A stretch of DNA of 64,000 nt from an uncultured Bacteroidales bacterium. GTDB lineage: Bacteria; Bacteroidota; Bacteroidia; Bacteroidales; FEN-979. The DNA lies in NCBI GenBank assembly GCA_903837605.1, contig CAILVF010000013.1, positions 1-64,000 on the forward strand, given 5' to 3'. The position numbers and the translations under genes were made by a program. Below the pieces are notes generated by a model, which was given only the letters and a program-made list of their open reading frames with translations, did not search any database and was not told where the DNA came from. Positions within the stretch are counted from its first letter, which is position 1; every line of letters starts with the position of its first letter. Of the stretch, positions 8,878-19,524 are shown piece after piece.

Positions 8878-11227
8878 TTATTCAGCTATTCTTAGCTTGG
8901 CGAATTTCAGAAGCAGTTGTTTCTGGCCAATACCGGGGAAAAGCACCGTTGCTTTCTTATTCGGACCAACGCCTTCGATATTAACAACCTTGCCTCTTCC
9001 GAATCGTTCATGTTCAACATCCATGCCTGTGATAATGTCTTCCGTATTGGCAGGGGGAATAGCAGATATTGCAGGGTTCACAGGAGGAACAAGGGGCTTT
9101 TGAGGGGGCTTTCCCGGGCTGTTCACGGGGGCAGCATTGGCAGGTTTCTGGCTGCTGAACTTCCTTGGCGGAAGATTCAGCCCCTGCAGCATGGCCGAGA
9201 AATTCTCGGCAGAATTAAATCCTTCCTTTTTAGGCATGGACCTTGTGGGAAGATCGATCAGTTTTTCAGGAATCTCGCTTATAAACCTGCTGGGCTCACA
9301 CATGGTGAGGTTCCCCCAACGGTAGCGGTTTTCGGAATAGGCCAGTGTGAGCTTGACTTCTGCCCTGGTGATCGCAACATAAAACAACCTGCGCTCCTCT
9401 TCCAGGTCGGTTCTCGAATTCAGGGATTGTATCGAGGGAAACAGGTTTTCCTCAAGCCCTGTGACAAAGACATATGGAAATTCAAGTCCCTTGGCCTGGT
9501 GAACGGTCATCAGAACCACCCTGTCGGTATCGTCCTTGCTGGCCAGGTCCGAATCGGTCAGGAGTGCAATATCCTGGATAAATTCATCAAGGGTACGCAA
9601 AACATTCTCTTCTATTTCGCCGGTTTCGAGGTTGGTCTTTGGAGTATCGGTGAATTCCTTGATCGCATTCAGGAGTTCCTCCATGTTCTCAAAATGGCTT
9701 ACGCCTTCGGGCGTTTTATCTTCATGGAGCTCTTTTATGAGCCCTGATGATGCGGCAATATGCTTGGCCAGTTCAAAAGCATTTTTTGTCTTTAACAGGG
9801 CGCCGAAGCTTTTTATCATCGTAATAAACCCGCTTACTTTTGCCCAGGTATTTTCGGGGAACCTGGGAGTTGCAGGCGGGTTCTCTATGAGATCGAACAG
9901 GCTCTTCTTATGCTCATCAGCGAGGACTATCAGCTTTTCAACAGTTGTTTTCCCGATACCGCGGGCAGGATAGTTGATTACACGAAGGAGGGCATCTTCA
10001 TCCCTTGGATTTATAGCCAGCCTGAAATAAGCGAGCATGTCCTTGATCTCTTTTCTCTGGTAGAACGACAAGCCTCCGTAAATCCTGCAGGGAATATTCA
10101 GCCTTCTCAAAGCTTCCTCCATGACCCTCGACTGTGAGTTTGTCCTGTAAAGTATGGCAAAGGATGTGTTTGGAAGCTGGCTGTTCATTTTATGGCCGAA
10201 AATAGCCTGGGCAACAAGGTTTCCTTCTTCGTTATCGGTTGAGGCATGAAGCAGGGTGATTTTTGAACCTTCGTCATTATCAGTCCATATCTCTTTAAAA
10301 ATCTGATTTTTATTGTTGCTGATGACCTGGTTGGCTGCTTCAACGATGGTTTTGGTGGAACGGTAATTCTGTTCGAGCTTGAAAACCTTGTGATCGGGAT
10401 AATCGCTCCTGAAATTCAGGATGTTCTGAATGTTCGCTCCGCGGAAGGCGTAAATACTTTGAGCATCATCTCCCCACAACGCAGAGATTTTCGTTATTCG
10501 CTGCAAGTTTTTTGACGATGAGGTATTGGGCATAATTCGTGTCCTGGTACTCGTCGACAAGGATATACCTGAATTTCTGCTGGTATTTGTAGAGGACATC
10601 AGGAAAATCGCGAAGCAGGATATTCATGTTGTAGAGAAGGTCGTCAAAATCCATGGCCGAGGACCGCATAAGGCGGTTCTGGTATTGCTGGAAGATCTTT
10701 CCTGTGAGAGGCTTGCCCGCCGCGTTATCATATTCCTGGATCTCCGGGTTTGACTGGTACTCTTCGGAGGAGATCAGGCTGGTCTTTGCCGCCGAGATCC
10801 TTTGGGTGATATAGCCCGGCTGGTAGAGTTTCTCGTCCAGGCTGTTCTCTTTGATCAGGTTTCTGACAACCCTTTTCGAGTCGTCGGAATCATAAATAGT
10901 GTAATTGGAAGGATAACCGAGGCGGTGCCCTTCGATTCGGAGCACCCTTGCAAACACCGAATGGAATGTTCCCATCCACACATTTTTAGCTTCACTGTTG
11001 CCTACAATCGTGAGGATGCGCTCGGTCATCTCCCGGGCGGCCTTGTTTGTAAACGTCAGGGCCAGGATGTGGAAAGGGTCAACTCCCAGTTCCAGCAGGT
11101 AGGCCACCCTGAAAGTTAAAACCCTGGTCTTTCCTGAGCCCGCCCCGGCAATAACCATGACAGGCCCTTCAGTTTCAACAACCGCCTTGCGCTGTGATTC
11201 ATTTAAATTTTCAAGGATTTTCGACAT
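8878..11227 (-). pseudogene. UvrD/PcrA-type ATP-dependent DNA helicase, interrupted by one frameshift
   Basis: An SF1A helicase of about 780 residues encoded in two frames. The first frame (11227 down to about 10470) holds Walker A GAGSGKT (28-34) and the DExx box ILVDEYQDTN. It ends at a stop just after NLCVVG. The second frame resumes exactly there with GDDAQSIYAFRGA (motif III) and continues with motif IV-VI sequences such as VHQAKGLEFPYVF and a C-terminal Tudor-like module (FGRGKVV) typical of PcrA. One extra base in the C-run at 10472-10475 explains the break. It could be a sequencing error or a real lesion. I start at the ATG at 11227; upstream there is only a TTG. Confidence 0.85.
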
Positions 11228-11299
11228 AATTTGAAATCCGGGCAAAGGTAAAAGAATAGGACCTTAACCTCCTCTTTGTGAAAAACTATTTAATTATAT

Positions 11300-11416
11300 T
11301 CATTTACCAGATTCCTGTTTACGTTTACCTGCCATATGCTTACACTTACCAACTGAGAACCTAACACACTTACGTATTTTCCATCTACACTTACCAGTAT
11401 TTTATCAACACTTACC
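11300..11416 (+). promoter_or_regulatory. Phased ACACTTACC repeats upstream of lipoprotein operon (possible LytTR-type operator array)
   Basis: Six 9-bp elements start at 11300 (TCATTTACC), 11321 (ACGTTTACC), 11342 (ACACTTACC), 11366 (ACACTTACG), 11387 (ACACTTACC) and 11408 (ACACTTACC). Steps are 21, 21, 24, 21 and 21 bp, so nearly all lie on the same DNA face. The last copy starts 41 bp before the -7 box. Direct 9-bp repeats on a 21-22-bp pitch, with a core like ACAGTTA, are the known target form of LytTR response regulators. The regulator itself is not in the window. Confidence 0.7.
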
Positions 11417-11448
11417 AATTCCTGCTTCCCTTAAGCATTTGATAGCTA

Positions 11449-11456
11449 TAATTTTG
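11449..11456 (+). promoter_or_regulatory. Promoter -7 box TAATTTTG
   Basis: The sequence fits the Bacteroidota primary sigma factor consensus TAnnTTTG. It lies 36 bp before the ATG of the first lipoprotein gene and 41 bp after the start of the nearest ACACTTACC element. Confidence 0.7.
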
Positions 11457-11491
11457 CGAGCAGTGTAAAGTGTCCTTTAACCATTTTAGCG

Positions 11492-11875
11492 ATGAAAACA
11501 AACATATATAAGTTAGGGTCTACATTATTAATAATTTTATTATTAATAGTATTCAGCTGCAAGAAAGACATAAATTCCATTGCTCCTGACCAGGCCTCCG
11601 GGAAACTGAAATCCATGAGCGATTTAAAAGTCTCTTCCGACTTCAACTGGAAGACCACACAAAATATCGACATGGAACTCACTTCACCTGAAAAAGCTTC
11701 TTTGGTTGTTAAATCGGCTTCAGGTGTTGTTTTTCAGAAAGCCCTGCTCCAGGGAGGTGAAACATATAAGACATCAATAACCATCCCGAATTATATGAAG
11801 GAACTGACTTTTGTTGTAAACGGAGTTTCATCCGTCATTAATATACAAAACAACCGGGTTATCCATTCTTTTTAA
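11492..11875 (+). CDS. Small lipoprotein with the N-terminal module of LruC proteins
   Basis: A 127-residue predicted lipoprotein: charged start, hydrophobic stretch (about 10-21), then lipobox VFSC with Cys23. The mature part contains MSDLKVSSDFNWKTTQNI, which closely resembles the N-terminal module MKDLVVSSSFSWNTDHNV of the LruC lipoprotein at 17455-19524. It therefore looks like a free-standing version of that module, encoded 12 bp upstream of a LruC-domain gene. Function is unknown; outer-membrane or periplasmic location is likely. It is the first gene of the operon behind the phased repeats. Confidence 0.75.
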   Translation: MKTNIYKLGSTLLIILLLIVFSCKKDINSIAPDQASGKLKSMSDLKVSSDFNWKTTQNIDMELTSPEKASLVVKSASGVVFQKALLQGGETYKTSITIPNYMKELTFVVNGVSSVINIQNNRVIHSF

Positions 11876-11887
11876 ACCTGTGATACC

Positions 11888-13924
11888 ATGAAAAAGACAA
11901 TATTCTCCCGGGTTAAAAGCCTCTTAATGATCTTGATTGCGACGGTTTTGCTGCCATCAATGATTTTTGCACAAACCAAGTCGATTTGCGATATCTATAA
12001 AAATAACGGAGGTGGTTATTCCACAACGATAACTTCAGTTGTTTGCAATCAATCAGATCATTCCCATACAATAGTGCTGAGGGTCGAACATAATGGCTGC
12101 GACGGTATAAGTTGCCCTGCGATTTCCCGCTTCAGCATTCAGGCTGCAGCCGGCACGTATTCAAACGTGGCAATCAGTATCCTCTACGGAGGGATGTCAT
12201 TCACAGGGATCAATTACGGTCCTGTTCTTTCGGGCGACCCCTGGAACGGGTTCAGGATCGAAGGGATCAGCGGTATCGGCAACGGCGTTGCAGGCGTGTT
12301 TACGATCTCTTACAAACTTACAGGTCCTTTTCAGGATCAGCAGGTTTCGGCCAGGGCAGGAGCCCTGCTTCAGCTTGCATCGTTCACAGCAGCAGATTTT
12401 CAGAGTGTCATGACATGTTATAATACCGATTGTTCCGGCGGGGGTTTAACAGGCCCTACCGCTAACAACGACAATGCCACAACACCTCAGAATACGCCGG
12501 TGACCCTGAATGTACTGGCAAATGATGTTGCAGGATCAGGTGCATTGGTGCCATCTACTGTAGCTTTCATACCCGGGACCCAGCCAAATCCCGCAACTGT
12601 AGGGACCTTCACGGTAAATCCTGTTACGGGTGCTGTCACCTTTACACCGGTCGCAACTTATACCGGCCTGGCTTCAATACAGTATAAAGTTTGCGATGTG
12701 AACAGCTTATGCAGCACTGCAACCATTACAGTGAATATCACAGCCTCTCTGATTCCTCCAACTGCCATGAATGACAATGCCACAACTTCATTGAATACAC
12801 CCGTTAATATCAGTATCCTCACGAATGATATCCAGGGGTCAGGCGCACTGGTACCTGCCTCGGTAACATTTGTTCCCGGTACGGCTCCGCCGGTTTCTAA
12901 AGGGGTTTTTACAAAAAACAACCTGGGCGTGGTAACATTTACTCCTGCAAACGGATACACTGGGACCGCCACGATTCAATACACGGTTTGCGATGTTAAT
13001 GCCTTATGCAGTTCAGCGACCATCACCGTTACGGTAAGCGGAGGTGGCGGCGACACTGATGGAGACGGCTGCCCTGATGATGTGGATGATTATCCTAATG
13101 ATCCCACCAGGTGTTTCGACAATTATTTCCCGGCAGGGGGCAATGGAACTCTCGCTTATGAAGACCTCTGGCCTTCAAAGGGGGATTATGATTTCAATGA
13201 TGTCGTTCTGGATTACCGCTTCAAAACTGTAACCAATTCCTCCAATAAAGTTGTTGAAATCTTTGCAACTTTCATCCTCAAAGCTTCAGGTGCTGAATTC
13301 CATAATGGTTTCGGCTTCCAGCTGCCAACAATAAATGTAGATCCTTCCACTATGACGGTGACAGGATCCCATTTATCACATTCCATTGTTTCACTTAACA
13401 ACCATGGACTTGAAAACTCTCAGGCCAAACCGACAATCATCGTGTTTGATGATTTCTTTGACCTGATGCCGAACCCTGGTTGCGGAATAGGGGTGAACAC
13501 CACTCCCGGTTGTGCTTATGTTGACCCGGTCACAATTTCCCTGCATATTTCATTCAGCAGCCCGGTTTATACAATGACCCAAACCAACGTTGAAAATTTC
13601 AACCCCTTCATTTTCGTAGGGCTTGACAGGGCACATGAAGTGCACCTTCCCGATTACGTGCCCACAAGCCTTGCAAACCAGGGCTTCTTCGGCACCTACG
13701 ACGATATGACCAATATTGCAACGAACAAATATTATAAAACGGTGAATAACCTGCCTTGGGCGATAAACCTGATCGAAAGCTTTGCATACCCCAATGAGAT
13801 GGTCGACATCATACACACTTACAACCATTTCGTGGAATGGGCAACCAGCGGAGGCTTGTTATACCAGGACTGGTATATGGATAAGCCCGCCTACCGTAAT
13901 GCTTCGAATATCTATATTCATTGA
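11888..13924 (+). CDS. Secreted cadherin-like repeat and LruC (DUF4842) domain protein
   Basis: A 678-residue exported protein with a Sec signal peptide ending near MIFAQ (about residue 29). After a beta-rich region (30-185) come two Ig/cadherin-like repeats of about 95 residues, each with NDNATT, LxNDxxGSGAL and TIQYxVCDVNxLCS signatures (about 190-285 and 288-383). A thrombospondin type 3-like calcium loop DTDGDGCPDDVDDYP follows, then a LruC/DUF4842 domain beginning with YEDLWPSKGDYDFNDVV. No sorting domain of T9SS type is evident at the C-terminus. Probably a cell-surface protein; ligand unknown. It is the second gene of a three-gene unit. Confidence 0.82.
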   Translation: MKKTIFSRVKSLLMILIATVLLPSMIFAQTKSICDIYKNNGGGYSTTITSVVCNQSDHSHTIVLRVEHNGCDGISCPAISRFSIQAAAGTYSNVAISILYGGMSFTGINYGPVLSGDPWNGFRIEGISGIGNGVAGVFTISYKLTGPFQDQQVSARAGALLQLASFTAADFQSVMTCYNTDCSGGGLTGPTANNDNATTPQNTPVTLNVLANDVAGSGALVPSTVAFIPGTQPNPATVGTFTVNPVTGAVTFTPVATYTGLASIQYKVCDVNSLCSTATITVNITASLIPPTAMNDNATTSLNTPVNISILTNDIQGSGALVPASVTFVPGTAPPVSKGVFTKNNLGVVTFTPANGYTGTATIQYTVCDVNALCSSATITVTVSGGGGDTDGDGCPDDVDDYPNDPTRCFDNYFPAGGNGTLAYEDLWPSKGDYDFNDVVLDYRFKTVTNSSNKVVEIFATFILKASGAEFHNGFGFQLPTINVDPSTMTVTGSHLSHSIVSLNNHGLENSQAKPTIIVFDDFFDLMPNPGCGIGVNTTPGCAYVDPVTISLHISFSSPVYTMTQTNVENFNPFIFVGLDRAHEVHLPDYVPTSLANQGFFGTYDDMTNIATNKYYKTVNNLPWAINLIESFAYPNEMVDIIHTYNHFVEWATSGGLLYQDWYMDKPAYRNASNIYIH

Positions 13925-13987
13925 GATTATTTTAACTGAGGATATTAACAATCAAGAAATTAATCATTAATCAAAACAATTAGCAAA

Positions 13988-15466
13988 ATGAAAAAATTAG
14001 CGTTAATCTTAACAGTTCTTGGCCTGGTGTTCGCATTTGCAGCCTGCAACAAGTTCAGAACTACGGAACCTGCTTCACAACAGGCCGCACAGGGGGTTAG
14101 TTTCACTATTGCTCCGGGGCAGACAGGCGGACTGAAATCCACGGCCAGCACTGACTGTTTCTTGCAGACGGCAAACTATGCAAAAATCACTATTGACAGC
14201 AAGCATTATGTAAGGGCTATATTCTACGTGGATGGCAAACCATACACAAACACCCTTCAGCTTGGGACCGGATTGCATAGCTTGCAGGAATTTACCATTT
14301 GGAGTGACAACCAGACTCCAAACGATTCCACCGATGATGCAATGCTTTCGGCTGTGCCTCATACAGGATCGGCGTATTCACCATATGTAAGCTCACCATT
14401 GGATATTACATTCACGGTAGAAGCATTTAAAAAGACACAGCTCCCTGTTGAAGCAATATGTTATCAGCCCAGCAACTATACCGATTTCGGCTTCACTTTC
14501 TTCCAGATTGAACAGGTCACTGTTCGCGAACAGCCATTTTTTGGTGACCTCTGTATTAAAAGCATCGCAGAATATTCCATTACGGGTTCGCCATACCTTG
14601 CACAATCCAATGGTATACAATTGGACCTTCCGGCAATCTTTAAAATTGAGGTATACAGGAATAATGTACTGAAGAACACCTTCAATAATGAGGCATGGAA
14701 TGGTGAAGGCCAGCCGCTGAAGGTGTTGTATGCCGACAGGCAGGGAGTTGCCGATAATTTCGAGTTCAAACTCTATGTTAAAGTCAGGAAAGGCCCGGGA
14801 TTTGATTATGTATATTTCAAGAGCTGGACCATTTCCGATGCCCAGGTGATCCCGCAGAACAGCGATGGAGTCTGTGACTTCTCCATTGGTTATTGTAATC
14901 CGAATGCTGATTATGTTCTTCCTCCATGGATCAATCTGCCGAATACCGCTACCTACACCATTACCGGCGCTTACGGCCCGGGTTCACTGGGTGGCTATGT
15001 AGATGCAAGCCTAACGAATGTGCTTTCAGGATATGAAATTGTAAACGGGACGTTTGCTTCATGGTGCTGCGATCATCAGACAACCATTAATGTGGGAACA
15101 GCATACAACATGGACGTGTATTCTTCGCTGTATCCCGCACTGCTTCCCGCTTTCGGACAAACTATACCCTGGGATAAGATCAACTGGCTGCTTAACCACC
15201 TTGATTGGTACCCCGGTTATCATTGGTATGATTTACAGGGAGCAATCTGGTTATTTGACAATCCTGCATGGGACGGCGTAGCCCATAGCAGTGTCCCCAA
15301 CCTTACTGCAATGATGACCCAGATGCATAACGATGCAAACGCTTATGGAGCCAATTACAAGGTTCCTACAGGCGGATGGGCTGCAGTTGTCTTCATCCCG
15401 ACAGGCACTCCTCCCAACGCACCGACCCCTACAATCCAGACCATGTTTATTAAACTTGACCCCTGA
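13988..15466 (+). CDS. Lipoprotein with putative internal thioester domain (paralogue 1)
   Basis: A 492-residue predicted lipoprotein (lipobox FAAC, Cys20). The first 300 residues are beta-rich and unassigned. From about 320 to 470 the sequence fits thioester adhesin-type domains: SWCCDHQTTI with Cys360, then KINWLLNHLDW, then YDLQGAIW with Gln417. In known thioester domains the Cys side chain and the Gln in a xQxAIW motif form an internal bond used for covalent attachment. This assignment is from motifs only. It follows the LruC gene by 63 bp with no terminator between, so it is probably the third operon gene. A close full-length paralogue of the same length lies at 15698. Confidence 0.8.
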   Translation: MKKLALILTVLGLVFAFAACNKFRTTEPASQQAAQGVSFTIAPGQTGGLKSTASTDCFLQTANYAKITIDSKHYVRAIFYVDGKPYTNTLQLGTGLHSLQEFTIWSDNQTPNDSTDDAMLSAVPHTGSAYSPYVSSPLDITFTVEAFKKTQLPVEAICYQPSNYTDFGFTFFQIEQVTVREQPFFGDLCIKSIAEYSITGSPYLAQSNGIQLDLPAIFKIEVYRNNVLKNTFNNEAWNGEGQPLKVLYADRQGVADNFEFKLYVKVRKGPGFDYVYFKSWTISDAQVIPQNSDGVCDFSIGYCNPNADYVLPPWINLPNTATYTITGAYGPGSLGGYVDASLTNVLSGYEIVNGTFASWCCDHQTTINVGTAYNMDVYSSLYPALLPAFGQTIPWDKINWLLNHLDWYPGYHWYDLQGAIWLFDNPAWDGVAHSSVPNLTAMMTQMHNDANAYGANYKVPTGGWAAVVFIPTGTPPNAPTPTIQTMFIKLDP

Positions 15467-15495
15467 TAAAGTAAGGATAAGATTATCAATTTATT

Positions 15496-15532
15496 AAAAG
15501 GAGGCTGTCCCATATGGACGGCCTCCTTTTTT
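15496..15532 (+). terminator. Rho-independent terminator
   Basis: A perfect 10-bp stem AAAAGGAGGC/GCCTCCTTTT (15496-15505 with 15521-15530), an inner GTCC/GGAC pairing and a T-run. It ends the first three-gene unit. Confidence 0.9.
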
Positions 15533-15560
15533 AATATACCCGGATACCTTTTATTATAGT

Positions 15561-15590
15561 ACACTTACTAAGAATAGAACCACACTTACT
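15561..15590 (+). promoter_or_regulatory. Two ACACTTACT elements 21 bp apart (operator copy 2)
   Basis: ACACTTACT starts at 15561 and at 15582, a 21-bp step. The second copy starts exactly 41 bp before the -7 box TATATTTG, the same geometry as at 11408/11449. It is followed by TTATCGCTT, also found in operator copy 3. Confidence 0.7.
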
Positions 15591-15622
15591 TGTTATCGCT
15601 TTTCCTCGCCACAGGGTAGTCA

Positions 15623-15630
15623 TATATTTG
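15623..15630 (+). promoter_or_regulatory. Promoter -7 box TATATTTG
   Basis: The sequence matches TAnnTTTG and lies about 67 bp before the chosen ATG of the second thioester lipoprotein gene. Confidence 0.7.
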
Positions 15631-15697
15631 TACTTCATTGAATAAAAGGAATTTAATCGCATCAGGCATGAAACCATTAATCCAAAAAATAAAGACC

Positions 15698-17176
15698 ATG
15701 AAAAAGCTAATGCTTATTTTAACAATTCTTGGGTTAGTCTTTGTTTTTGCAAGTTGTAACAAGCAGAAAACAGAGACCCCCGGCACCCAGCAATCCAACC
15801 AGGGTGTTAGCTTCTCAATTGCCCCCGGCCAAACCGGAGGGCTGAAATCTACCGCAAGTACTGACTGTTTTTCACAAACAGCCAATTATGCGAAAATCAC
15901 AATTGACGGTAAACATTATCTCAGGGCAATATTTTATGTCGATGGGGTTCCTTACACCAATACTCTGCAATTAGGCACCGGCTTGCATACTTTGCAGGAA
16001 TTTACCATCTGGAGTGATCACCAGACACCGAATGATTCTACCGATGATGTGATGCTTTCGGCAGTTCCTCACAGCGGTTCAACTTATTCACCTTATGTGT
16101 CTTCCCCTCTGGATATTGCTTTCTCGGTTGAGGCTTTCAAAAAGACACAGGTGCCGGTTGAGGCATTATGTTATCAGCCAAGCAATTATACCGATTTTGG
16201 ATTTACATTTTTCCAGATTGAGGAGGTTACCCTTCGCGAACAGCCTTTCTTTGGTGACCTTTGTATTAAGAGCATAGCTGATTATTCAATACCGGGTTCA
16301 CCATACCTTGCACAGTCAAACGGCATCCAAATTGACCTTCCTGCAATCTTTAAAATTGATGTTTACAGGAACAATGTTCTGGTCAACTCATTCAGCAATG
16401 CCGCATGGCATGGTGAAGGGCAGCCGTTAAAAGTACAGTATGCCGACAGAAAAGGCATTCCCGATAATTTCGAGTTCAAACTCTATGTGATGGTCAGAAA
16501 AGGACCCGGCTTTGATTATGTTTATTTTAAAAGCTGGACATTTGCTGATGCACAGGTGATTCCGCAGAATGCCGACGGCGTTTGCGACTTTTCCATAGGA
16601 TATTGCAATCCCAATGCCGACTATGTTCTTCCTCCGTGGATCAACCTGCCGGCCACGTCAACATATACAATAACAGGAGCTTATGCTCCCGGTTCACAAG
16701 GCGGTTATGTCGATGCAAACCTGACAAACATTTCAGGCGGATATGAAGTAGCAAACGGGCTTTATGCTTCATGGTGCTGTGACCACCAGACCAATATCAC
16801 TGTGGGCCAAAGCTACAATATGAACGTGTTTTCATCATTATATCCTGACTTGCTCCCGGCTTTTGCGCAAAGCAGGCCCTGGGACAAATACAACTGGCTG
16901 TTAAATCATTTAGACTGGTATGCAGGATATCATTGGTACGATCTCCAGGGTGCATTATGGCTGCTTGAATCCCCGGCATGGAATGGTGTTGCCGAAGGCG
17001 GTGTGCCTAATGTTACAGCTTTGATGACCCAAATGAAAAACGATGCCAATGCCTATGGCAGCGGATATAAAGTCCCTACCGGCGGATGGGCGGCAGTTGT
17101 ATTCATTCCGGTTGGAACCCCGGGTAATGCTCCGAACCCGACCATACAGACCATGTTTATCAAACTGGATCCGTAA
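15698..17176 (+). CDS. Lipoprotein with putative internal thioester domain (paralogue 2)
   Basis: A 492-residue lipoprotein, the same length as the product of 13988-15466 and strongly similar over its whole length, so a tandem duplication is clear. The lipobox is FASC (Cys20). The thioester-type motifs are conserved: ASWCCDHQT with Cys360, YNWLLNHLDW, and YDLQGALW with Gln417. I chose the ATG at 15698, which opens the signal peptide MKKLMLILTILG; in-frame codons further upstream (ATG at 15668) would put 10 polar residues before it. It is alone between a promoter with phased repeats and a terminator. Confidence 0.8.
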   Translation: MKKLMLILTILGLVFVFASCNKQKTETPGTQQSNQGVSFSIAPGQTGGLKSTASTDCFSQTANYAKITIDGKHYLRAIFYVDGVPYTNTLQLGTGLHTLQEFTIWSDHQTPNDSTDDVMLSAVPHSGSTYSPYVSSPLDIAFSVEAFKKTQVPVEALCYQPSNYTDFGFTFFQIEEVTLREQPFFGDLCIKSIADYSIPGSPYLAQSNGIQIDLPAIFKIDVYRNNVLVNSFSNAAWHGEGQPLKVQYADRKGIPDNFEFKLYVMVRKGPGFDYVYFKSWTFADAQVIPQNADGVCDFSIGYCNPNADYVLPPWINLPATSTYTITGAYAPGSQGGYVDANLTNISGGYEVANGLYASWCCDHQTNITVGQSYNMNVFSSLYPDLLPAFAQSRPWDKYNWLLNHLDWYAGYHWYDLQGALWLLESPAWNGVAEGGVPNVTALMTQMKNDANAYGSGYKVPTGGWAAVVFIPVGTPGNAPNPTIQTMFIKLDP

Positions 17177-17201
17177 TTAAGTACAGCAGAAAAATTCAGA
17201 T

Positions 17202-17239
17202 GGAGGGACGCTATGGATAACATGGCGTCCCTCCTTTTT
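17202..17239 (+). terminator. Rho-independent terminator
   Basis: A 10-bp stem GGAGGGACGC/GCGTCCCTCC (17202-17211 with 17225-17234) followed by TTTTT. It ends the single-gene unit of paralogue 2. Confidence 0.9.
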
Positions 17240-17329
17240 GATTGTAAATACACTCATTTCAACAATAAAAGCGATAATCTGCTAAATTAAACAGACACGC
17301 AGCAGCAGGTTGTAAATGCTTACTGTGCG

Positions 17330-17380
17330 ACAGTTCGGGCAAATTTTAGAACACTTGCTAATCCGTCCTTCACACCTGCT
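17330..17380 (+). promoter_or_regulatory. Three phased elements 21 bp apart (operator copy 3)
   Basis: ACAGTTCGG at 17330, ACACTTGCT at 17351 and ACACCTGCT at 17372 step by exactly 21 bp. The last copy starts 42 bp before the -7 box. ACAGTT is the core of classical LytTR sites, which supports the same type of regulator. The copies are more diverged than in the other two regions. Confidence 0.6.
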
Positions 17381-17413
17381 TATTATCGCTTGATTCAACC
17401 ACTTGCCTGGATG

Positions 17414-17421
17414 TATTTTTG
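17414..17421 (+). promoter_or_regulatory. Promoter -7 box TATTTTTG
   Basis: The sequence fits TAnnTTTG. The expected transcript start is near 17428, which excludes TTG at 17419 as the translation start of the next gene and favours ATG at 17455. Confidence 0.65.
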
Positions 17422-17454: not shown

Positions 17455-19524
17455 ATGAAAAAGCCAATAAATACAATCAAGGGATATATATCAGGTTTAA
17501 TTATCCTGATAATGATACCCGTTCTGATCACTTCCTGTAAAAAGGATTATTCGAACGGGCAGACTCCGGTTGACAATACGAAGCATATGAAAGACCTTGT
17601 GGTCTCTTCTTCCTTCAGCTGGAATACCGATCATAACGTAACCTTTGACATCTACGCAAAGGATAATCAGAACGGTCCGATCAGCAAAGTGCGTTTTGAT
17701 GTATATACAAAACAACCCACCGATGGTGGCGAATTGCTTTTCAGCGGCATTACAGGTGATGACGGGCTGTTTCATTTTATCCGTCCTATCCCCGGTTCAC
17801 TTAAACAGGTGACCGTAACCACTAAATTCTTAGGGATCGGCCGTTACAGGACCCTGGATGTTTCGGGTGATAATGCAGTTTGCATCTTCGGAGGCAAATT
17901 CCCCGATCCGGTAAGGACTAAAGCATCAATGGGTTTTACACCGGTACCCGGCATGCCCAGGGTTTATTATATGGGAACGTTTGACGGATCAGGCGTGCCA
18001 AACTATTTTGAACCGGTCAATGATGTAATTCCGGCCTCTCTTCTGTCGGATATCAATGCTTCGCTCCCCGAAGGTGTTTCAGTACCTGTTCATCATCCTG
18101 AATACCTCACTAATACGGCTCCTACGCAACTTGTTCTCCAGGAATTATGCGATGTTTATGTAACCTTTGTTTCCGAAGGCGCCGGATTCAGGAACTGTAT
18201 TGGGTTCTATACCTTTAATACAGGCACACCCCCGGCCAATGCAAGCCAGATAGATTCCATTAAAATTGTTTTCCCGAATGCATCTTCATCAGGCAGTGGC
18301 GGAGGTTTGCATGCAGGGAATAAAGTAAAGATAGGCCGTTTCCCCGCTGGCAAGACCATAGGATGGGTTGTATTTTCTGATGGATGGAACGGTAGTAATG
18401 TTACGGCAGGAAGATGGACGGTATATTCAACAAACAGCCTGAACCCGGAATCCAGTGCCAGCGAACAACGTCATATTGTATTGTTACGCAATCCAAGTCT
18501 TCATAATATCCTTTTTGGTGTTGAGGACTGGCGCAGGGATGATCATGGATCATGCGACAACGATTTTAATGATGTGGTACTGAACCTTGTATCTAACCCG
18601 GTAGAAGCTGTCGACCAGACAGATTATCCCCCGATGACACCTTCGAGCCCCGATGCTGATGGAGACGGGGTACCAGATAATCTAGATGATTATCCTCATG
18701 ACGCTTCGAAGGCCTTTAATAATTATTATCCCTCCGCAACAGGACTGGGAACCCTTGCTTTTGAAGATCTCTGGCCGCAGAAAGGTGATTATGATATGAA
18801 TGACCTGGTCGTTAATTACCGTTTTAACCAGATCACAAATTCTAGTAATAAAGTAGCAGAAATCACTGCAAAACTTATTCCGATTGCCCAGGGCGCCGGT
18901 TTGCAGAACGGTTTTGCAATCCAGATCGGAACTGCTGCAGCAAATGTTATCAGTGTGAGTGGTCATGACCTCCGTCATTCCCTGTTCACAATGTCGGGCA
19001 ACGGAACGGAAAGCGGGCAAACCAAGGCTGTCGTCCCGGTATTTGATAATGCCTACGATCAGCTTCCTTACCCGGGATCAGGGATTGGAACAAACACAAC
19101 CATTGGTGTTGTGTATGTTACTCCTCCCGAACTTAACCTTGATATTGTAATGAAGTCGGGTGGCGTGTCTATACTCGAAACCGGAACACCTCCCTATAAT
19201 CCGTTTATAGTGGTAAACCAGGTAAGAGGCCTCGAAGTGCATTTACCTGATAAAGCCCCGACGGATAAGGCCGATAACAACTATTTCGGAACTGCTGACG
19301 ATAACAGTATCCCGTCCTCAGGCAGGTACTATAAATCATCGACCAACCTGCCATGGGCGATTAATATCGGCTCGCAGTTCGCCTATCCTTCAGAAAAAAG
19401 CGAAATCACCCAGGCCTATTTGAAGTTTGCAGGATGGGCCGAGTCTTCAGGTGCTCTGAATGCCGACTGGTACAGCAATACAGGCAGCGGGTACAGGAAT
19501 AACGCCCTGATCTATACCCATTGA
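17455..19524 (+). CDS. LruC (DUF4842) domain lipoprotein
   Basis: A 689-residue predicted lipoprotein with signal peptide and lipobox LITSC. The N-terminal module starts MKDLVVSSSFSWNTDHNV and is followed by a carboxypeptidase-regulatory-like beta fold (GELLFSGITGDDGLFHF). The middle part contains a DUF4114-type segment ending FGVEDWRRDDHGSCDNDFND. A calcium-type loop DADGDGVPDNLDDYPHD then leads into the LruC/DUF4842 domain starting FEDLWPQKGDYDMNDLVV. It joins in one chain what the first unit encodes as two proteins. The start is the ATG at 17455, giving a normal signal peptide and a short leader from the predicted promoter. Surface or periplasmic location is inferred. Confidence 0.82.
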   Translation: MKKPINTIKGYISGLIILIMIPVLITSCKKDYSNGQTPVDNTKHMKDLVVSSSFSWNTDHNVTFDIYAKDNQNGPISKVRFDVYTKQPTDGGELLFSGITGDDGLFHFIRPIPGSLKQVTVTTKFLGIGRYRTLDVSGDNAVCIFGGKFPDPVRTKASMGFTPVPGMPRVYYMGTFDGSGVPNYFEPVNDVIPASLLSDINASLPEGVSVPVHHPEYLTNTAPTQLVLQELCDVYVTFVSEGAGFRNCIGFYTFNTGTPPANASQIDSIKIVFPNASSSGSGGGLHAGNKVKIGRFPAGKTIGWVVFSDGWNGSNVTAGRWTVYSTNSLNPESSASEQRHIVLLRNPSLHNILFGVEDWRRDDHGSCDNDFNDVVLNLVSNPVEAVDQTDYPPMTPSSPDADGDGVPDNLDDYPHDASKAFNNYYPSATGLGTLAFEDLWPQKGDYDMNDLVVNYRFNQITNSSNKVAEITAKLIPIAQGAGLQNGFAIQIGTAAANVISVSGHDLRHSLFTMSGNGTESGQTKAVVPVFDNAYDQLPYPGSGIGTNTTIGVVYVTPPELNLDIVMKSGGVSILETGTPPYNPFIVVNQVRGLEVHLPDKAPTDKADNNYFGTADDNSIPSSGRYYKSSTNLPWAINIGSQFAYPSEKSEITQAYLKFAGWAESSGALNADWYSNTGSGYRNNALIYTH

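Follow-up and report, generated by a model that had tools for sequence, protein, structure and literature searches.

The window, a 64,000-nt stretch at the start of contig CAILVF010000013.1 of an uncultured Bacteroidales bacterium (source genome of 4.15 Mb in 93 contigs), carries three transcription units in which genes for lipoproteins and LruC/DUF4842 proteins stand behind arrays of a short direct repeat (Table 1). The initial annotation had described all three as lipoprotein units. The units are present, but unit 1 additionally encodes an LruC protein that is apparently secreted and not lipidated. The gene at 13988-15466 is probably transcribed from the unit 1 promoter as well. Its product and that of the gene at 15698-17176 are close tandem paralogues, matched by no Pfam or NCBIfam family, and GLKST is possibly an undescribed family of surface lipoproteins. 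A third GLKST member, on contig C49, has a C-terminal Fib_succ_major domain. On the minus strand ahead of unit 1 (8878-11245), a UvrD/Rep-type helicase gene is broken into two ORFs that overlap in different frames (10466-11245 and 8878-10599); the break, at CVVG/GDDAQS, looks like a frameshift that reflects either an assembly error or damage to the gene.

Table 1. Operators, promoter elements and genes of the three units, with the candidate regulator gene.
Feature	Position	Strand	Detail
Distal operator triplet, unit 1	11300..11350	+	From sequence; copies at 11300 (TCATTTACC), 11321 (ACGTTTACC), 11342 (ACACTTACC); distal triplet shared with G001 and G005
Proximal operator triplet, unit 1	11366..11416	+	Copies at 11366 (ACACTTACG), 11387 (ACACTTACC), 11408 (ACACTTACC); 24 bp past distal triplet
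Weak -33 element CTTC, unit 1	11425..11428	+	Position of the conserved CTTG in the promoter alignment
-7 box TAATTTTG, unit 1	11449..11456	+	
127-aa lipoprotein, companion of LruC protein	11492..11875	+	ORF; same partner in relatives
678-aa LruC/DUF4842 protein, Big_9 domains	11888..13924	+	PF16130 3e-54, TIGR04456 2e-74
492-aa lipoprotein (GLKST family)	13988..15466	+	ORF
Operator pair, unit 2	15561..15590	+	Exact pair, profile E=2e-11; copies at 15561 and 15582 (both ACACTTACT)
-33 element CTTT, unit 2	15599..15602	+	Promoter alignment
-7 box TATATTTG, unit 2	15623..15630	+	
Second 492-aa GLKST lipoprotein	15698..17176	+	ORF from internal ATG
Operator copies, unit 3	17330..17380	+	From sequence, profile E=5e-7; copies at 17330 (ACAGTTCGG, weak), 17351 (ACACTTGCT), 17372 (ACACCTGCT, weak)
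-33 element CTTG, unit 3	17389..17392	+	Promoter alignment
-7 box TATTTTTG, unit 3	17414..17421	+	
689-aa LruC/DUF4842 lipoprotein with DUF4114	17455..19524	+	PF16130 2e-56, TIGR04456 7e-77
Orphan LytTR response regulator C3	G000:C3:64934-65695		Beside hydE and ychF

The repeat positions, the 21-bp phasing and the fixed promoter distance of the initial annotation were all reproduced. Copies were found at each position; every step is 21 bp except that from 11342 to 11366 (24 bp), and a TAnnTTTG box follows the start of the nearest copy at 41, 41 and 42 bp. The copies at 11300, 11321, 17330 and 17372 are degenerate, and the remaining window copies are exact or one letter off. The element had been taken as 9 bp long. 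The repeats are there, but the promoter alignment gives a conserved element longer than that, with the proximal copy reading ACANTTACTTATT.

Pairs at this spacing are far above chance. On the plus strand of the window, five 21-bp pairs match ACACTTAC at 13 or more of 16 positions, against a mean of 0.09 and a maximum of 1 in 100 simulated first-order Markov sequences; at spacings of 20 and 22 bp, the same strand and threshold gave none. The promoter box is likewise enriched: in 0.34 Mb of stretches from the same genome, TAnnTTTG lies at exactly +41/+42 in 8 of 17 pairs, where the background rate predicts about 0.01.

We aligned 21 promoters from the source genome and its relatives. Two copies of ACANTTAC, a TTATT 3' of the proximal copy, CTTG at -33 and TAnnTTTG are conserved, and the DNA between repeats, -33 and -7 is not. 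The layout is ACANTTAC-N13-ACANTTACTTATT, CTTG (-33), 20 nt, TAnnTTTG (-7), which places the proximal copy 41-42 nt ahead of the -7 box, an intact -33 element lying between the two. The relatives' promoters had been chosen by their match to ACACTTAC, which biases the repeat columns and leaves the -33 and -7 columns unselected by that score.

Genome-wide, exact ACACTTAC-N13-ACACTTAC pairs are confined to the window, where they include the unit 1 proximal triplet and the unit 2 pair, and to contig C39, where they stand ahead of the gene for a 1004-aa protein that ends in a type IX sorting tail, an LruC lipoprotein gene, and a GNAT gene with a type IX secretion system (T9SS) plug gene behind it. 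We then ran on the whole genome a sequence-only profile made from 20 aligned promoters, which recovers its training promoters by construction. Outside training it found the promoter of the third 492-aa-type lipoprotein gene (C49, E=1e-7) and three LruC promoters, at C4:48307 (E=8e-4), C30:4036 (0.02) and C48:3193 (0.07). The genome has 11 LruC-domain genes, several with degenerate pairs visible on direct reading of the upstream DNA; by the profile, 10 of the 11 have a site, three of these promoters being outside training, and the LruC gene on C85 is the sole exception. The genome scan that the initial annotation had called for thus returned non-random matches at a fixed promoter distance, ahead of LruC, lipoprotein and T9SS-related genes. 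Two-mismatch pair matches on C45 and C59 fall within coding regions and were regarded as chance, and profile matches on C73 (E=0.05) and C1 (E=1.7) were too weak to accept.

The sites extend well beyond the source genome, with profile matches at E<=0.01 in 23 of 43 genomes of the family. At least 55 of the 90 matches outside the source genome, in 19 relatives, precede an LruC domain (E below about 1e-3, domain within 3.5 kb downstream on the same strand, some promoters belonging to the training set). The other targets are GNAT/plug genes, the small LruC-companion lipoprotein, T9SS-tailed proteins and DUF4402 proteins, the last with signal peptides in G004 and G034 (L397, L385, L390). In several relatives the operator stands ahead of a short ORF followed by htpG (L208, L209, L211, L377, L379); the ORF, read in L208, encodes about 40 aa with one membrane segment. 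In those relatives, this last arrangement connects htpG, a chaperone gene, with the surface regulon. Taken together, a target set of surface lipoproteins, T9SS cargo, the T9SS plug and, in some relatives, the htpG-linked ORF suggests a coordinated change of the cell surface.

Several targets are paralogous, namely the LruC genes and the 492-aa lipoproteins (two in the window, one on C49), and the repeats could in principle be non-regulatory leftovers of duplication, copied along with the genes. Conservation, though, is restricted to the repeats, -33 and -7, with dissimilar spacers and flanks; the layout recurs at unrelated genes (GNAT/plug, DUF4402, the small ORF before htpG, T9SS-tailed proteins), and its geometry is retained across genera. 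Because the spacers diverge and unrelated genes carry sites, we reject duplication leftovers as a wholly implausible account.

The number of copies varies among promoters. Two is usual and several promoters have three, while six occur only at unit 1 in the source genome. Six-copy unit-1 arrays recur in two other species, with steps of 21, 21, 24, 21 and 21 bp in G001 and 21, 21, 23, 21 and 21 bp in G005, so the 24-bp exception is a conserved junction of two triplets and not a slip in a single genome. At least the proximal three copies are retained in G003, G006, G024 and G034. The unit-1 array may therefore be read as a promoter-phased triplet to which a distal triplet was added.

What kind of protein would read such an element? 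LytTR operators consist of direct repeats of 9 bp separated by 12 bp (PMC2766830); the LytTR Regulatory System (LRS) operator of Streptococcus anginosus is ACCACTTAC-12 bp-ACCACTTAC, and LRS repeats are strongly biased to a position 10 bp before -35 (PMC6193735). Set in the ACCACTTAC register, our element reads (N)ACACTTAC, with a 12-bp spacer and an end 10 bp before the TTG of -33, and its 21-bp period (repeats of about 9 bp, spacer of about 12 bp) is that of a LytTR operator. Its CACTTAC core is identical to the core of ACCACTTAC. The classical LytTR core is ACAGTTA, from which CACTTAC differs at the fourth base.

The operator type is also physically tied to LytTR proteins, because variant sites adjoin LytTR genes in two genomes without a C3 orthologue (G027:C20, G018:C206 and G018:C248). 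There, among the few profile matches left in these genomes, a variant 21-bp pair with a promoter lies about 36-145 bp 3' of the LytTR gene on the same strand, ahead of the next gene, with repeats that include CCAGTTACA, CCGGTTACC and CCGACTACC (L222, L380, L215/L371); the G018 sites are weak (E=0.002 and 0.09). These variant pairs are probably related LytTR operators with targets of their own. A scan of 828 kb around LytTR genes turned up one convincing operator, in G027, and the element is therefore not typical of LytTR loci as a class.

Same-face direct repeats 5' of a -33/-7 promoter would suit several activator families, and our survey of regulators covered LytTR proteins only; an activator of, for example, the OmpR/PhoB type might use the sites instead. 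OmpR-type sites repeat about every 11 bp, whereas no ACANTTAC-like half site lies in the middle of the 21-bp period here. Core, repeat length, spacer and -35 distance all agree with LytTR sites, beside whose genes the variants lie, and we regard a regulator from outside the LytTR family as improbable. The LytTR-type regulator proposed by the initial annotation gains support from the fixed architecture, which resembles published operators, and from a candidate protein: judged by sequence, the sites very likely belong to such a regulator, with binding as the prediction. The operator type is known; the regulon, as far as can be told, is new.

The genome encodes 11 LytTR response regulators, none of them near the targets; the initial annotation had named the absence of any such regulator as a refuting result, and this check too favours its reading. 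A LytTR gene stands beside an LruC gene in only 3 of 80 loci (flanks up to 10 kb), and linkage therefore fails to name the regulator. We turned to co-inheritance, comparing the complete set of LytTR proteins (118) from 13 relatives, of which seven have sites and six were scored as lacking them. For C3 alone, each of the seven site-bearing genomes contains a reciprocal orthologue (65-94% identity), and the five clearly site-less, LruC-bearing ones have none (best match at most 37% identity). The sixth genome scored as site-less, G039, has a C3 orthologue too, along with an LruC gene preceded by a weak site (E=0.04). Co-occurrence with sites gave p=0.005 for C3, followed by C93 (p=0.12) and C76 (p=0.18), and C3 is the only one of the 11 that tracks the sites in this panel.

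The association extends to the larger set. Among 43 genomes, at least two sites occur in 17 of the 21 with a C3 orthologue (60% identity or more) and in 1 of the 22 without (p=2e-7, phylogeny ignored), so that 17 genomes have both, four the orthologue only, one the sites only (G001) and 21 neither. Restricted to LruC-bearing genomes, the association holds at p=1.4e-5, again with phylogeny ignored; within genus g2, sites are present in 6 of 6 genomes with C3 and 0 of 13 without. On a tree of the plug protein, about three changes account for the distribution of the C3 gene, and the two or three independent pairs, most of them in agreement and none contrary, are too few for significance. With only some three independent changes to draw on, the co-inheritance is suggestive and not conclusive. 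G042 has a 60%-identical orthologue with neither sites nor LruC genes, and G036, G039 and G040 have an orthologue but no more than a single site, of weak to moderate strength.

With 11 LytTR response regulators in the genome, related repeats right behind other LytTR genes in G018 and G027, and sites but no C3 orthologue found in G001 (80% complete), the operators might belong to a different LytTR regulator or to several paralogues. Against this, the remaining ten LytTR genes fail to follow the sites in the 13-genome panel, and we judge it unlikely. C3 is probably the regulator of the sites, a prediction from co-inheritance.

C3 joins a receiver domain (PF00072, 2e-16) to a C-terminal LytTR domain (PF04397, 2e-12), both over the curated cut-off; a PDB sequence search matched solved receiver domains and added nothing to the LytTR assignment. 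The gene is unlinked to any target, and the orthologous loci read contain no adjacent kinase. An adjacent cognate kinase is usual in the AgrA/LytR/AlgR family and is not a strict requirement. The gene ychF adjoins C3 in 20 of 20 orthologous loci read, with a HydE-type gene on the opposite side in 16, an unusually stable neighbourhood for a kinase-less regulator (L342; orthologous loci L343-L361). No operator was seen upstream of C3, which leaves autoregulation unsupported, and no membrane protein gene lies beside it; for both reasons we do not class C3 as an LRS.

We propose, at a probability of roughly 70%, that a C3-type LytTR activator acts on these operators and drives a surface-protein regulon. 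C3 would be phosphorylated in response to a signal by an unlinked histidine kinase. A dimer would contact a pair of ACANTTAC repeats that lie on one face of the DNA at a distance of two helical turns and, bound just 5' of the -33 element, would aid RNA polymerase at the TAnnTTTG promoter, activating and not repressing it. Further in-phase copies, three or six, might load more dimers and raise output. C3 would in this way jointly turn on LruC surface proteins, GLKST lipoproteins, T9SS-tailed proteins and the GNAT/T9SS-plug operon. A bolder version, which we hold with slightly more doubt than confidence, is that a dedicated orphan LytTR regulator coordinates a surface programme across a Bacteroidales family (LruC, GLKST, DUF4402, T9SS cargo, plug), and that three- and six-copy arrays with their conserved phase break may serve as graded amplifiers at chosen promoters.

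In the open-access literature we found no paper on the regulation of LruC/DUF4842 genes in Bacteroidota, on a LytTR regulon connected with type IX secretion, or on LytTR direct-repeat sites in Bacteroidetes. For LruC/DUF4842 surface proteins, the analysis offers a specific hypothesis of regulator, operator and targets, and it links LruC to type IX secretion. It also indicates that sequence allows LytTR operators to be recognised in Bacteroidota and that co-inheritance can match them to a regulator; the strategy could be applied again to the phylum's many orphan LytTR regulators.

Among known systems, the sites resemble the HdrR/BrsR LRS operators of Streptococcus mutans and relatives, which share the 9-bp repeats, 12-bp spacer and CACTTAC core (S. 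anginosus), lie about 10 bp before -35 and activate their promoters (PMC6193735). LRS operons are autoregulated and have an inhibitory membrane protein beside the regulator (PMC6193735), whereas our candidate is an orphan two-component-type regulator with no operator of its own, predicted to act on unlinked genes from Bacteroidota-type -33/-7 promoters with arrays of up to six copies. In its receiver and LytTR domains C3 resembles AgrA/LytR/AlgR regulators such as SilA, which bind as a dimer to two direct repeats 5' of target promoters (PMC2766830), as proposed here; those regulators are encoded with a kinase, while C3 has none adjacent, and the targets here are LruC and T9SS-related surface proteins. 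Within the phylum, LRS-like operons of Bacteroides thetaiotaomicron and B. ovatus carry repeats just 5' of a -33/TATCTTTG promoter under a LytTR regulator (PMC6193735), the family predicted here. Their 11-bp repeats with 11-bp spacer have an unrelated sequence (TCCGGTATTCA), and their regulator, unlike C3, is membrane-anchored and autoregulated (PMC6193735). PorXY-SigP of Porphyromonas gingivalis likewise places type IX secretion genes of a Bacteroidota member under two-component control, but it acts by way of PorX and an ECF sigma factor, with neither a LytTR domain nor a direct-repeat array (PMC4800418).
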